Below are positions 9,478 through 43,180 of a DNA stretch of 43,546 nucleotides, one piece after another; the stretch's first letter is position 1, and every line of letters begins with the position of its first letter. Origin of the DNA: Bacillota bacterium (lineage in GTDB: Bacteria; Sysuimicrobiota; Sysuimicrobiia; Sysuimicrobiales; Segetimicrobiaceae); NCBI GenBank assembly GCA_021324295.1, contig JAJPJJ010000043.1, positions 1-43,546 on the forward strand, in the 5' to 3' direction. The position numbers and the translations under genes were made by a program. The notes beneath the pieces are model-generated. The model had not been told where the DNA came from, ran no database searches, and worked only from the letters and a program-made list of their open reading frames with translations.

Positions 9478-10737
9478 TCACGCCGGGGGTTGCCCTGGCG
9501 GGCCGGCGGCGGGACGTCGCGCATATCCGGCTGCTCGCGCCATGATGAGCACGGCGCCTAGGAGCGTCAGCGCGCCGGCCAGGAACGCCGACTCGAGCCC
9601 GCGAGCGACGCTCACGAGCCCGAACACGACCGGGCTCGCGATCGCGCTCACGCGCTGGACGCTCTGCCGCACTCCGAACGCGATGCCCCAGAATTCTGCG
9701 GCCACGCATTCGGCCAGGAGGCTCATGGTCAGCGGCTGGGTGAAGCCGAGGCTCGCTCCCAGCAGCCCCGACGCGACGACCAGCGTCCAGAACTGGTGCA
9801 GCAGCGGCGTGATCCCCAGCGCGATCGCCGCCAGGGCGGTCGCGCCGAGCAGCAGGCGGGCGTAGCCGAGCCACGCGACGCCCCACGCCAGCAGCGTGCG
9901 GACCAGCATCGAGCTCAAGCTGACCGCGGCGACGACGAGGCCGATCAGGGTATCGGGGAGCCCGACCTTGTGCAGGTAGAGAGGGTAGAACGACTGCTGC
10001 AGCGTCTGCGCGCACACCATCATGGATGAGAGGAACAGGATCGCACCGACGCCGCGCTGGCGCACGATCGCTCCGATGACCGTGTGGGCGGTCGCAAGCG
10101 AGACCCGAGCCCGCGCGGCCGCCGGGACGCCGCGGAGGGAGGCGGTCACCCCGAAGGCCGGCAGCATCAGGAGCCACACCGGCGCGAACGCCGCCGTGTA
10201 GCCGAAGTGCCCCGCGGCGAGCCCGCCGATCACCGGGCCGACCACCGCGCCGGCGGAGTTCCACAGAGCGTAGTAGCCGTAGTTTCGGACGCGCGTGGCA
10301 TCGGTGCTGGCCGCCGCCACGATCGCCTGCGGCGCGATGGCGAACCCGATGTTGCCGATGCCCATCAACGCGTAGGCCACGGCGACCGCCCAGAGCCTGT
10401 GCAGCACCGTCAGGATCGCGCCCGCTGCGGCGAACAGGATCACTGAGGCCTTCGCGACCACGATGGGGCCGCGCTCGTCCACCAGCGCGCCCGCGTGGAT
10501 GGACACGAGCAAGGGCGCGACGCCGGAGACGCCGACGATCGTCCCCACGACCGCCACCGACGCGCCCTGGGCGGCGAGGTAGAGGGGGATGAATGGCGCG
10601 GCGCTGTACCACGCCGCGTTGGACAGGACCTGCAGCGCGTTGTTGAGCCAGAGGACCGACGGCGGCGCCATCGCGGCCCGCCCGGCATCCCCGGCGGAGG
10701 GCGCGCCCGCCGCGCCGGCGGCGCGCGTGGCGCTCAA
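9478..10737 (-). CDS. MFS transporter
   Basis: Major facilitator superfamily permease, 419 aa, with about 12 hydrophobic segments and a central loop rich in Ala/Arg (about 210-225). It is most like the MdtG/arabinose-efflux type. The TTG start at 10737 overlaps the TGA of the upstream selenoprotein gene (TTGA), implying translational coupling; an internal ATG beginning MAPPSVLWLNN is an alternative start. Convergent with livF across an 82-bp gap. The substrate is unknown. The coupling suggests it exports or imports something linked to the selenoprotein's reaction. Confidence 0.88.
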   Translation of the reverse strand: MSATRAAGAAGAPSAGDAGRAAMAPPSVLWLNNALQVLSNAAWYSAAPFIPLYLAAQGASVAVVGTIVGVSGVAPLLVSIHAGALVDERGPIVVAKASVILFAAAGAILTVLHRLWAVAVAYALMGIGNIGFAIAPQAIVAAASTDATRVRNYGYYALWNSAGAVVGPVIGGLAAGHFGYTAAFAPVWLLMLPAFGVTASLRGVPAAARARVSLATAHTVIGAIVRQRGVGAILFLSSMMVCAQTLQQSFYPLYLHKVGLPDTLIGLVVAAVSLSSMLVRTLLAWGVAWLGYARLLLGATALAAIALGITPLLHQFWTLVVASGLLGASLGFTQPLTMSLLAECVAAEFWGIAFGVRQSVQRVSAIASPVVFGLVSVARGLESAFLAGALTLLGAVLIMARAAGYARRPAAGPPGQPPA

Positions 10738-11438
10738 CGTGCCGTCCGGTGCGCCGCCACGGCCTCGGCGTAGCCGGCGATCAGCGGGTGCGGGCGGTCG
10801 GCGGTGGAGCGAGCCTGGGGGACGAAGAGCGTGGCCACGAAGAACGGGTGGGACGGCAGCTCGACGATGCGCACCTCGCCGCCGCGCCCCACGCCGCTGA
10901 CCACGATCCCGCCCGCCTGCAGCGCGTCGCGGTACGCTGGGTTGACGCCGTAGCGGCAGTAGTACGCTTCGGGGGCCCGCGCGCTGCCGTAGAGGTCAGC
11001 GGCGCGCGTGCCGGGCAGGATCGTGACCGGTTCCTCCTGCCCGACCAGGGAGCAGGTCAGGGGCGTGATGACCGGGCACGCGGCGCCTGGGTTGGTCTCT
11101 GCATGATCCGCGTCCTTGAGTCCAAGGACGTTGCGCGCGAACTCGACGATCGCGTGCTGAAAGCCCCCTCACGTGCCGACGAGCGGCACGCCGCGCTCGC
11201 GCGCGTAGCGAATCGCGCGCAGCGCCCCGTCCAGGCTGCGGTAGGGGCTCGCGGGGGCGATCCAGAGCCCGTCGAAGCGTGCAAGCTGCCCGGCCGGATC
11301 GCTCCCGATGCTGTCCGTCGGGATCCAGACACCGCGGATGCCGGCGTGCGCGAGCGCCTCGGTCGTGAACCGGTGCGTGGGGTTGTGAGCGTTGTAGTCG
11401 CCGATGATTCCCACCAGCGCAGGGGTCGTCGTGGCCAT
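10734..11438 (-). CDS. Selenoprotein related to the CTP synthase C-terminal (GATase-like) domain, Sec90 by UGA
   Basis: Reading through the in-frame TGA at 11169-11171 gives one continuous 234-aa protein. It runs from MATTTPALVGIIGDYN through RGVPLVGT-U-GGFQHAIVEFARNVLG to LPSHPFFVATLFVPQ and the stop at 10734. Cys-containing relatives carry GTCGGFQH, so Sec90 replaces the nucleophile-elbow cysteine. NCBI recognises a 'CTP synthase C-terminal region-related (seleno)protein' family, and this matches it. A hairpin at 11133-11157 is placed like a bacterial SECIS. selA and selB are in the same window. The His-Glu dyad of true amidotransferases (FHPE) reads FVPQ here, so glutaminase activity is doubtful. 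Conventional gene calling would give an 89-aa stub. Activity is unknown. The downstream MFS gene overlaps the stop. Confidence 0.9.
11133..11157 (-). promoter_or_regulatory. Candidate bacterial SECIS hairpin
   Basis: On the minus strand, directly after the UGA, GC-A-CGCGA pairs with TCGCG-C-GC around the 9-nt loop TCGTCGAGT: five inner pairs, one A-C mismatch and two outer pairs. The loop starts about 20 nt after the UGA, in the range expected for SelB-recognised bacterial SECIS elements, which have little primary-sequence conservation. The same bases encode HAIVEFAR. Folding was done by eye only. Confidence 0.6.
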
Positions 11439-11444
11439 ACACAG

Positions 11445-11450
11445 ATTATA
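11445..11450 (-). promoter_or_regulatory. TATAAT -10 box for a possibly leaderless selenoprotein mRNA
   Basis: A perfect TATAAT on the minus strand ends 6 nt before the ATG at 11438, which would place the transcription start at or next to the A of the start codon. There is no Shine-Dalgarno sequence in the gap and no clear -35 box at the expected distance. This is the -10-to-ATG spacing seen in leaderless genes of Deinococcus and Actinobacteria. Confidence 0.5.
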
Positions 11451-39205: not shown

Positions 39206-41278
39206 TCACCGGCCCGGCTGCGCGGCCTGCCGCGCCGCCCCGACCTCGCGCTCGGGCGCGCCCTCGCGGTCGGGGTCGGTCCTGCGCTGGCGGATCCGGA
39301 TGGACGCGATGGAGAATGCCCGTCCTGTGCGAGACCCGAGTCCGATGGACCCCAGGTATCCCAGCAGGTCGCGCGCCGCGCTGCGCGACAGCCCGAGCCG
39401 CGCTCTGGCCTCGCTGTCGGGCACGGTGCCGAGCGCCCCGAGCTCGCGGACGAGTCCGGCGAGCACCTTGCGGTGGCAGACGAACCGGTCGGAGATCCGG
39501 ACGGCGGCGCCGTCGGCGATGAGGGCCCGCAGCGCCCGCCGGACGTCGCGCTGGGGGAGGCCGACCGTCTCCGCGAGGCCGGCGACCGGGACGACGCGCC
39601 CGGCGTCCACGTACAGCGCGCGCTCGACCCGCCGGGTGACGCCCGGGGCGACCGGGGACCCCGGGGACGGGGGCGTGACGACGAGGCTGTCGTGGACGCG
39701 CAGCCCGTAGACGTGCGCGATATCGCGCGTGAGCGTCTCCAGCACGTCGCGGTCCTGGATCGGGCTCGCGCGCCACCAGTGCTCGAGCCACAGGGACCGT
39801 CCCGGGGCCGGCAGGGCCTCGACGAGTGCCCTTCGGGCCTCGTCCAGCGCGTCCTCGTGCCAGTAGCGGCGGCGGGAGCGGACGAGCACGGCGAGCCCGT
39901 CCGGGGTGACGCCCATCCGCCGCTGGAGGTCGGCGGCCGCCCGCCCCCCAAGCCCCGCGGCGCGGGCGAACTCGCGCACGGCCTCCTGCGGGGTGGCCGC
40001 GGCGAGCGCCCTGGCCGTGTCGATCCCCGCGCGGATGCGCTGCGGCGGCGCGATGTCGAGGACCCGGACCGAGCCGATCGTGCGCTCGCCGCCCGTGGTG
40101 CGCAGGATGGCGACGTCCCCGAACGCGAGCACGAGCGGCTCGTCGCAGCGGACGAGAACCGTCGGCGCCGCGGCGGGCGTGTGCGCGCCCTGGGCGTCGA
40201 GCCGCACCACGTGGGCGCGGGCGCTCGCGGTGCCGGCCAGCAGTTCCACCGTCAGGCGCCGCCTGTCGGGCGCCCCCGGCAGCGCGGTGAGCACGGCCGT
40301 GAAGCGCCGGGTGGCGGTGAACGCTCGGGGGTCGACGAGCTGGCTGCCGGGCCGGACGTCCTTCGCCTCGATCCCGGTGAGGTTGACGGCCGGCCGCTCT
40401 CCCGCCAGCACGGGATCGGCGTCCTCGCCGTGCACCTGGAGGCCCCTTACCCGGACCCTGCGCTCCTGGGGGAGCAGGGCGAGCTCGAGCCCGGGCCGCA
40501 GGGTGCCGGACCACAGCGTGCCCGTGACGACGCAGCCGGCGCCGGGGATCACGAACGCGCGGTCCACCGGGAGCCGCACCGCCCCGTGGTGGTTCCGCGG
40601 CGTCGCGGTCTCGAGCAGGTCGTCGAGCGCCCGGCAGAGCTCGTCGAGCCCCTCGCCGCTGTGGGCGCTTGTGAAGACCGCCGGCGCCTGCGCGAAGGCC
40701 GTGTCCCGCAGCCAGGCCTGGACGCGCGCGCGGGCTTGCTCGCGCTCCTCGGGGCCCGCGAGCAGGTCGGCCTTTGTGATCGCGGCGACCCCGCGGGTGA
40801 CGCCCAAGAGCTCCAGGATCTGGACGTGCTCGCGCGTCTGCGGCATCACGCCCTCGCGGGCGTCGATGCAGAGCACGACGGCGTCAAGCCCGCAGGCGCC
40901 CGACACCATGGTGCGGACGAGGGACTCGTGTCCGGGCACGTCCACAAGGTCGCACCGCCGGCCGCTGGGGAGACGGAGCTCGGCGAAGCCGAGGACGATC
41001 GTCATGCCGCGCTCCTTCTCTTCCTTGAGCCGGTCGGGATCGGTACCGGTGAGGGCTTTGACGAGCGCCGACTTTCCGTGGTCGACGTGGCCGGCGGTGC
41101 CGACGGTGAAGGCCCGCAGCCGCAGCGCGACCTGCGGAGCCGCTGCGGCCGGCGTCGCTTTGGCGGTCGACGCTTCGCGCGGACGGCTGGTGTCGGTGCT
41201 GCCCACAGCGCCGCCGCGCCGCGATGCGCGCGGCGGCCTGCCTGTGACCTGGGCGCCGCGTTGCTGGTCGCCGGTCAC
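39206..41278 (-). CDS. selB: Selenocysteine-specific translation elongation factor SelB
   Basis: A 690-aa GTPase that brings Sec-tRNA to in-frame UGA codons marked by SECIS hairpins. GTPase motifs: G1 GTAGHVDHGKSALVKAL, switch region EEKERGMTIVLGFAEL (the KxRGMTI of SelB), G3 DVPGHESLVRTM and G4 TKAD. Domains II/III follow, then C-terminal winged-helix repeats (VTRRVERALYVDAGRVV, RRALRALIADGAAVRISDRFVCHR, ARLGLSRSAARDLLGYLGSIG) that bind the SECIS. The first ~55 residues are a low-complexity extension, so a later start is possible. GTG 41278 overlaps the TGA of the MazF-like gene. Its only visible client in this window is the gene at 10734-11438. Confidence 0.95.
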   Translation of the reverse strand: MTGDQQRGAQVTGRPPRASRRGGAVGSTDTSRPREASTAKATPAAAAPQVALRLRAFTVGTAGHVDHGKSALVKALTGTDPDRLKEEKERGMTIVLGFAELRLPSGRRCDLVDVPGHESLVRTMVSGACGLDAVVLCIDAREGVMPQTREHVQILELLGVTRGVAAITKADLLAGPEEREQARARVQAWLRDTAFAQAPAVFTSAHSGEGLDELCRALDDLLETATPRNHHGAVRLPVDRAFVIPGAGCVVTGTLWSGTLRPGLELALLPQERRVRVRGLQVHGEDADPVLAGERPAVNLTGIEAKDVRPGSQLVDPRAFTATRRFTAVLTALPGAPDRRRLTVELLAGTASARAHVVRLDAQGAHTPAAAPTVLVRCDEPLVLAFGDVAILRTTGGERTIGSVRVLDIAPPQRIRAGIDTARALAAATPQEAVREFARAAGLGGRAAADLQRRMGVTPDGLAVLVRSRRRYWHEDALDEARRALVEALPAPGRSLWLEHWWRASPIQDRDVLETLTRDIAHVYGLRVHDSLVVTPPSPGSPVAPGVTRRVERALYVDAGRVVPVAGLAETVGLPQRDVRRALRALIADGAAVRISDRFVCHRKVLAGLVRELGALGTVPDSEARARLGLSRSAARDLLGYLGSIGLGSRTGRAFSIASIRIRQRRTDPDREGAPEREVGAARQAAQPGR

Positions 41279-41751
41279 GGGATTCCGAGACACCAGCGGA
41301 GCATCTCGGCGACCTTGCGTATTGATGGCGGGCCGATGGTGCCCATGAGCCGCTCGCAGTCGGTCTGAGGAATCGTCAGGATTTGATGGCATAGGGCAAC
41401 GGTGTTCTTGCGCAGGCCCGTTTCCGTACCGGGCAGCGGGACGCTGTAATCACGCCATCGCGCTGGCGGCTGAGTCGTGAGCCGGACCACCATGGTGGTC
41501 GGTTCGAGCGCGTTTAGTGTGTCGTTCTGGACGACGAGGACGGGGAGCGCCTGGTGCGGGCGGCCGAGCGGGCGGGGGACCCGGCTGACGATGTACACCT
41601 GTCCTGTGCGAACACCGTGTGGCACGGCGGTCGTCTCCCGTTCGGCCAGGGCGATGGCATCAAACTGGCGGGCAAGGATGTCCTGGACGTCCGCCTCCGT
41701 CCATTCCGTCAGGATTTCGATGTCGTCCGTGTTCACAGCTGCCTCCGTCAC
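41275..41751 (-). CDS. MazF/PemK-like protein embedded in the selA-selB operon
   Basis: A 158-aa protein. From residue ~46 it matches the PemK/MazF fold: VRTGQVYIVSRVPRPLG, ALPVLVVQNDTLNALEPTTMVV, SVPLPGTETGLRKNTVALCHQILTIPQTDCERLMGTIGPPSIRKVAEMLRWCLG. The N-terminal ~45 residues (TEAAVNTDDIEILTEWTEADVQDILARQFDAIALAE) form an acidic helical extension not usual in MazF and could act as a fused antitoxin-like segment (speculative). The GTG overlaps the selA stop and the TGA overlaps the selB start. No separate antitoxin gene is adjacent. MazF relatives are sequence-specific mRNA endoribonucleases. Confidence 0.82.
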   Translation of the reverse strand: MTEAAVNTDDIEILTEWTEADVQDILARQFDAIALAERETTAVPHGVRTGQVYIVSRVPRPLGRPHQALPVLVVQNDTLNALEPTTMVVRLTTQPPARWRDYSVPLPGTETGLRKNTVALCHQILTIPQTDCERLMGTIGPPSIRKVAEMLRWCLGIP

Positions 41752-43103
41752 CGTGGCGTCGGGCCAACAAGGAGCGCCGCCGTGACAGCCGGATCGTCCT
41801 CGGGCAGCACGCTTCGGAGATCAAGCACGACCGTGTCGTCTCGTCGGCGTGCTGCGATCCCGTGCCGGAGGAGCGCGGCGTACAGCGCATCACAGGCCAT
41901 GGCCGGGTGGGTCAGCCGAACCGTCCACGTTGGGAGAGGAACGCCGGGGAGCGCGGCGCCGCCGCACTCGGTGGTATCGGGGGCTGCCTCCGCCCCAAGG
42001 CTCGCCTCCGCGGCACGTGCCGCGAGCGCCTCGGCCCGTTGCCGGAGATCGGCCTGGGACGCGCCGAGCAGTCGGAGCACGGGGATCTCCTCCCAGGCGC
42101 GGCCGGCGACATAACTGGCCAGCGTGGCTTCAAGCGCGGCGAGTGTGAGCTTGCCGGGCCGGCAGCAGCGGGCCACGGGGTGGCGCGCGAGCCGCTCGAC
42201 GAGCTCGCGCCGGCCGCAGATCACCCCGGCCTGGGGGCCGCCGATGAGCTTGTCGCCGCTCGCGAGCACGAGGTCCGCGCCGTCCCGCAGCGCGTCCCGG
42301 ATCGTCGGCGAGTATGGGAGTCCCTTCTCGCGCAGGTCCACGAGGCTGCCGCTCCCCAGGTTGACGACGAGCGGCACGCGCGCCTCGCGGGCCAGCCGGG
42401 CCAGGGCGGCGGTCTCCACGTGGCTCGTGTACCCGGTCGCGGCCGTGTTCGACGCGTGGATCCGGACGACGGCGGCCGTCTCGGGGCCGACCGCGCGCCG
42501 GTAGTCCTCCGGGTAGACGCAGTTCGCGGCGCCGACCGGGACCACGCGGGCTCCGCCGGCCTCCAGGATGTCGCGGAGGCGGGCGCCCTGGCTGATCTCG
42601 ATGAGGTCGCGCGCGGCGCACACGAGCTCCCGCCCATGGGCCAGCGCCGCCGCTGCGAGCAGGCAGCTCGCCGCGTTCTGGGTGGTCACGGCCGCGGCCT
42701 CGGCGCCCGTGAGGGCCACAAGCAGCCGCTCGCAGGCCGCCGCCCGCTCCCCGATCTCCCGGGCCCCGGTGGGGCTGGCGCCGGCGGCTTCGAGCAGCCG
42801 CTCCTGCGCGGCGCGGGCCAGCGGGGCATTTCCCCACTGGGTGTGGATCACGATGCCGGTCGCGTTGATGTAGCGGCGGCGCGGGATCCGGAGCGCCGCG
42901 GCGGCCTCCGACACCGCGGCAACGATCGCCTGGACGGCGGCCTCGCGGGTCGGCGGCGGATCCGACCGGAGCCGCTGAACGGCGCCGCGCACGAGCGCGG
43001 CCAGGAGGCCGCCGTCAATGCCGAGGTCGCGCAGGGCCGGGTGCTGCAGGAGGACCTGGGTGGACGGGATGGCGTCCCACCGGGCTGATTCGACTGTGTG
43101 CAT
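41748..43103 (-). CDS. selA: L-seryl-tRNA(Sec) selenium transferase SelA
   Basis: A 451-aa PLP enzyme converting Ser-tRNA(Sec) to Sec-tRNA(Sec) with selenophosphate. It has the SelA N-terminal domain (IPSTQVLLQHPALRDLG), YINATGIVIHTQWGNAPLA, NLGSGSLVDL, the PLP lysine K285 in ASGDKLIGGPQAG and GKLTLAALEATL. Some usually conserved stretches differ: HTQWGN replaces HTNLGR and the Arg-rich 'GxRGxR' region reads GAREIGERAAACE, so it is a divergent SelA. ATG 43103 is chosen. A TTG at 43130 would start inside the IS end. No Shine-Dalgarno precedes the ATG: the transposon boundary is only ~22 bp upstream and may have replaced the native leader. Confidence 0.92.
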   Translation of the reverse strand: MHTVESARWDAIPSTQVLLQHPALRDLGIDGGLLAALVRGAVQRLRSDPPPTREAAVQAIVAAVSEAAAALRIPRRRYINATGIVIHTQWGNAPLARAAQERLLEAAGASPTGAREIGERAAACERLLVALTGAEAAAVTTQNAASCLLAAAALAHGRELVCAARDLIEISQGARLRDILEAGGARVVPVGAANCVYPEDYRRAVGPETAAVVRIHASNTAATGYTSHVETAALARLAREARVPLVVNLGSGSLVDLREKGLPYSPTIRDALRDGADLVLASGDKLIGGPQAGVICGRRELVERLARHPVARCCRPGKLTLAALEATLASYVAGRAWEEIPVLRLLGASQADLRQRAEALAARAAEASLGAEAAPDTTECGGAALPGVPLPTWTVRLTHPAMACDALYAALLRHGIAARRRDDTVVLDLRSVLPEDDPAVTAALLVGPTPR

Positions 43104-43125
43104 GGCGGTACACAGGATACCAAGT
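43104..43125 (-). promoter_or_regulatory. selA leader, also the predicted omega-RNA guide
   Basis: The ~22 bp between the transposon right end and the selA ATG (minus strand ACTTGGTATCCTGTGTACCG...) contain no Shine-Dalgarno or promoter. In IS200/IS605 elements the sequence just outside the right end becomes the guide of the omega-RNA, so any transcript running out of tnpB here would carry the selA leader as guide and could also drive selA. Confidence 0.5.
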
Positions 43126-43180
43126 GTCAACTACCCCGGACTGAAGTCCGGGGCTTGGGCGAGGCTCGGAACGGCCACCG
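43126..43180 (-). ncRNA. Right end and putative omega-RNA 3' scaffold of an IS200/IS605 element
   Basis: Reading on the plus strand, GTCAACTA is followed by the perfect hairpin CCCCGGACTGAAGTCCGGGG (43134-43153) and CTTGGGC. This is the conserved subterminal hairpin and right-end form of IS605-type elements, whose minus-strand transcript forms the TnpB guide-RNA scaffold. It overlaps the last codons of tnpB, as in characterised omega-RNAs. The 5' limit of the RNA is not visible, so the interval marks only the recognisable 3' part. Confidence 0.7.

Follow-up and report, generated by a model that had tools for sequence, protein, structure and literature searches.

A predicted selenoprotein of the CTP synthase C-terminal-related family NF004836 in Candidatus Sysuimicrobiota, with a glutaminase fold but an altered active site

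Introduction

An in-frame UGA in the column of a catalytic cysteine raises the questions of whether that codon is read as selenocysteine (Sec), and of what chemistry the resulting protein would perform. Both arise in the window analysed here, a stretch of 43,546 nucleotides that constitutes one contig (C42) of the 129-contig, 4.02-Mb assembly of a soil bacterium. A first-pass annotation of the window had proposed a genuine selenoprotein with Sec at the nucleophile of a protein resembling the C-terminal part of CTP synthase. Judged by sequence that proposal stands, although the selenoprotein identity was already in print: in the deep-Sep study of 2025 (PMC12013277), Table 3 holds a glutamine amidotransferase (COG0504, PyrG) selenoprotein from Desulfosediminicola with a TGA codon, Cys homologues and SECIS-like structures, and the corresponding entry of a 2026 review (PMC13188914) gives the same selenoprotein as NF004836, with the motif GxUxG. 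The selenoprotein status of the family is therefore published, and the gene described here is a further member of a known family. What the present analysis adds is its distribution, with Sec forms in Sysuimicrobiota, Rokuibacteriota and a Chloroflexota metagenome-assembled genome (MAG) and Cys forms in Gammaproteobacteria and two Rokuibacteriota, together with the anatomy of its active site. No description of the function of the NF004836 family was found in the literature searched.

Results

The minus-strand frame at 11438-10734 opens with an ATG at 11438 and runs for 89 codons to a TGA at 11169-11171, then for a further 144 codons to a TGA stop at 10734-10736, exactly as the first-pass annotation had placed it. 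Read through, it forms a complete gene for a protein of 234 residues with Sec at position 90 (Sec90). Both halves had been assigned to one domain, and they do fall within a single match to NF004836 (299.5 bits, residues 9-227, model positions 3-227; curated cut-off, 260 bits), the NCBIfam family (PRK06186) named "CTP synthase C-terminal region-related (seleno)protein". PyrG models match more weakly, with their C-terminal part alone covered by the product and the synthetase domain absent. The motif around the codon, GTUGGFQH, fits the GT[UC]GG of NF004836. GC content at the first, second and third codon positions is 0.67, 0.58 and 0.91 upstream of the UGA and 0.74, 0.53 and 0.90 downstream of it, which indicates a coding pattern in both halves. 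UGA is also the commonest stop among the window genes sampled, and a genetic code in which it is always sense was rejected, given that it terminates 9 of those 14 genes. Contamination of the genome bin was likewise considered and set aside: the tetranucleotide composition of the contig correlates at 0.80-0.95 with ten other contigs of its own genome and at no more than 0.88 with loci of other genomes, overlapping ranges that lend support without proof, and the contig looks native.

By sequence, a TATAAT resembling a -10 box (11445-11450, minus strand) lies 6 nt 5' of the ATG. Similar boxes end approximately 6-11 nt 5' of the start codon at this gene and at five related loci (L026, L040, L043, L104 and L105), a position which suggests that the mRNA may be leaderless, or nearly so. 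At the other end, an MFS transporter frame (9478-10737, minus strand) overlaps the selenoprotein gene at its stop (TTGA), and the overlap suggests that the two may be cotranscribed; the transporter does not adjoin the gene in the relatives examined. Across lineages, no gene conserved beside the selenoprotein gene was found, synthetases included. The flanking genes vary by lineage (MFS, ABC transport, hydantoinase, xanthine-dehydrogenase-like, UvrD and others), and the neighbourhood gave no clue to function.

Of 29 aligned family members, drawn from four phyla, 23 have Sec (TGA) and six a Cys codon in the UGA column, with no other residue, and none of the homologues found stops at this position; the alternation of Sec and Cys that had been expected there is thus borne out. 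Matches above the NF004836 cut-off occur in 4/43 genomes of Candidatus Sysuimicrobiota (all TGA), 20/95 of the phylum of a Rokuibacteriota MAG (18 TGA, two Cys), 1/29 of the class of the Chloroflexota MAG (TGA) and, for the class that contains Nitrincola (Gammaproteobacteria; all Cys), 5/369 of those sampled. In a tree, the family and the CTP synthases part at 100/100, and the Sec label requires two changes.

A SECIS-like hairpin, GCACGCGAUCGUCGAGUUCGCGCGC (11133-11157, minus strand; -10.2 kcal/mol), starts 11 nt 3' of the UGA, inside the 12 nt first claimed for it, and its GUCGA loop (11143-11147, minus strand) lies 21 nt from that codon. The bacterial SECIS model, as it appears in the relevant part of PMC13188914, specifies a loop of 3-9 nt with G in its first two positions, at 16-37 nt from the UGA, an energy of -7.5 kcal/mol or lower, and an upper stem of 4-16 bp. 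In loop, distance and energy the window hairpin fits this model. Its stem, of 8 bp in total, carries two single mismatches, one directly below the loop-closing pair, and has no unbroken run of at least 4 bp at the loop. A mismatch-free search with the model failed for most members, and AUCGA loops, without the usual G, are present in two of the 23 Sec members. Folding of the window hairpin as a single sequence, the check first suggested for it, was not significant (z from -1.8 to -0.1), and we therefore relied on comparative tests, which gave a clear signal. Relative to an expectation from pooled codon use, synonymous conservation in the Sec genes is 1.58-fold at codons +6 to +11 and 1.82-fold at codons +12 to +17, the gene-wide maximum, and codon +12 is CGC in 23/23; no comparable peak was seen in the Cys genes. 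With synonymously recoded sequences as the reference, the mean folding z of the 30 nt at +12 is -2.12 in the 23 Sec genes, the lowest of the windows tested, and -0.51 in the six Cys genes; throughout these comparative statistics the rows share ancestry and do not count as independent. Four members (L043, L103-L105) have unbroken stems at an equal distance, built of different bases.

The genome encodes selA, selB, selC and selD. The selA and selB genes to which the first-pass annotation pointed are present in the window at 39.2-43.1 kb (selB, 39206-41392; selA, 41748-43130; both minus strand), but prove to be a second, divergent pair: the phylum-typical selB and selA accompany selC (tRNA-Sec, 72.6 bits; gathering score, 47) on contig C106, and the window SelB is ~40% identical to the copy there. 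Two copies of each gene occur elsewhere in the phylum only in one genome (G029), and no second selC was found near the window pair. As the other three phylum members with the selenoprotein gene have one selA each, the gene does not need the extra pair. In the phylum-typical selA (L073, G000:C106:124870-124930), one base seems to be missing from a C homopolymer, which splits the gene. The gap may be an assembly error; a real break would leave the window selA as the working copy. The selD gene lies on another contig (L074, G000:C90:137275-138198) and has an in-frame TGA in CAGUASK, by which SelD is itself a selenoprotein.

The AlphaFold model of the window protein has a mean pLDDT of 95.9, and its closest PDB matches are CTP synthases, with TM-scores (query length) of 0.83-0.91 across the top 48 matches. 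In CTP synthase, His515 and Glu517 are residues of the catalytic triad, and Arg468 and Arg470 line the GTP site (PMC9138612). When the 29 members are aligned to E. coli PyrG, the Cys379 column is Sec or Cys in all (Sec90 in the window protein), and Gln383 (29/29) and Glu403 (28/29) are kept. The placement of Sec at the nucleophile thus holds in position only, as the remainder of the glutaminase triad has gone. His515 is absent from every member (Leu in 18, Val in seven, Gln in four; Val206 in the window protein, codon 10821-10823, minus strand), and Glu517 from 26/29 (Gln in 26, Glu in three; Gln208, codon 10815-10817, minus strand). The window protein has the fold of a class-I glutamine amidotransferase, with Sec90, Val206 and Gln208 in place of the Cys-His-Glu triad. 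Loss of the His is not a consequence of Sec, since the Cys members also lack it. The Arg470 column, Asn in 22 members, Arg in two and other residues in five, has lost Arg in 27/29, the window protein being among those that retain it, and the Arg468 column is mostly Tyr or Phe. Relative to PyrG, the family has gained Cys161 (29/29; codon 10956-10958, minus strand), where the E. coli enzyme has His469, His22 (29/29) and Cys129 (28/29; codon 11052-11054, minus strand). His95 is present in 28/29, and Phe353 and Gly354 are replaced by Ser (28/29) and Pro (29/29), respectively. The initial Gly of the E. coli GGF loop is also lost, but this was dropped as a family trait, as Pro occupies the same column in other CTP synthases. 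A separate, full-length PyrG is encoded elsewhere in the source genome (contig C126).

Discussion

The NF004836 match, the column of 23 Sec and six Cys residues, a hairpin signal confined to the Sec genes, the presence of selA, selB, selC and selD, and the otherwise normal use of UGA as a stop, together make it almost certain that 10734-11438 encodes a genuine selenoprotein of this family. SelB bound to the hairpin just 3' of the UGA at 11169-11171 would bring Sec-tRNA(Sec), and read-through would yield the 234-residue protein with Sec90; we infer from these features that the Sec90 product is translated in the cell. This protein has the CTP synthase glutaminase fold with Sec90 at the old nucleophile, the triad His gone, and the triad Glu and Arg470 lost from most members. 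These losses make glutaminase activity doubtful, as do the presence of a PyrG in the same genome and the fact that no partner gene is conserved, and the NF004836 protein is very probably not a canonical glutaminase.

Where Sec and Cys replace one another among homologues, the residue is usually redox-active. The reading we favour is that Sec90, as a selenolate, takes part in redox chemistry or in related chemistry with electrophiles, and that the invariant Cys161 resolves a selenenylsulfide formed with it; that Cys161 adjoins the Arg470 column suggests that it lies close to Sec90 in space. Selenol redox chemistry with this particular pairing has, in our estimate, slightly less than an even chance. 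The best overall explanation, to which we assign a probability of roughly one half, is that of an NF004836 selenoprotein which is probably not a glutamine amidotransferase, and whose Sec90 probably performs redox or related chemistry with Cys161. Retention of Gln383 and Glu403, and of Arg at the Arg470 column of the window protein, counts against it, as do the two stem mismatches, the two AUCGA members and the non-significant single-sequence folding of the hairpin. More tentatively still, the NF004836 proteins may be thiol/selenol redox enzymes of a new class, built on the glutaminase fold, whose ancestor would have lost glutamine hydrolysis and gained Cys161 near the old nucleophile, with Sec replacing Cys in some lineages.

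The strongest competitor, which we regard as possible but rather unlikely, is that acyl-transfer chemistry persists, with Sec90 attacking an amide or gamma-glutamyl substrate and His22, His95, His112 or a low selenol pKa standing in for the triad His. It would explain why the fold, the position of the nucleophile and the equivalents of Gln383 and Glu403 are kept, and why His22 is invariant and His95 nearly so; it sits poorly with the loss of the triad His in 29/29 members and of Glu517 and Arg470 in most, and since that His is missing from the Cys members too, a lowered selenol pKa cannot account for its loss in general. A binding or sensing protein with no catalytic activity, whose Sec or Cys is oxidised or binds metal without turnover, would suit the lost hydrolytic residues and the patchy distribution (4/43 genomes of the phylum), but a strictly conserved Sec or Cys, and the expense of inserting Sec, point on general grounds to an enzyme, and we consider an idle protein improbable. 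Lower again we place a glutaminase subunit that supplies ammonia to a synthetase, be it CTP synthase or another: its homology to the glutaminase domain of PyrG and the COG0504 label in the PMC12013277 table speak for such a role, against which stand the absence of the triad His from 29/29 members, the full PyrG elsewhere in the genome, and the lack of any synthetase or other neighbour conserved across lineages. A reading without Sec, in which the UGA would be a genuine stop, an error of sequencing or the scar of a pseudogene, is very improbable, frequent though this stop is in the window: separate genomes supply 23 distinct genes with TGA at the same codon, the hairpin signal is present and the Sec gene set is complete.

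The selenoprotein prediction of 2025 holds in further phyla, with independent evidence at the RNA level, and standard annotation would cut such genes in two. The label "glutamine amidotransferase" probably misdescribes the NF004836 family, and comparison of active sites points to Sec90, Cys161, Cys129 and His22 as residues with testable roles.

Among known systems, the published NF004836 selenoprotein shares with the window gene the GTUGG motif, a UGA matched by Cys in homologues and a SECIS-like structure 3' of the UGA; the former is from Desulfosediminicola, the latter from Candidatus Sysuimicrobiota, and the parts of PMC12013277 and PMC13188914 that concern the family contain no discussion of the missing triad. 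The glutaminase domain of PyrG has in common with NF004836 the fold, the nucleophile position, Gln383 and Glu403, but NF004836 has no synthetase domain, has replaced His515, Glu517 (26/29), Arg470 (27/29) and Arg468, and bears the new Cys161, Cys129 and His22. In DJ-1/PfpI proteins, a reactive Cys on a flavodoxin-like fold, related to that considered here, supports chemistry other than glutamine hydrolysis. This last likeness is one of analogy, the direct relative of the window protein being PyrG.
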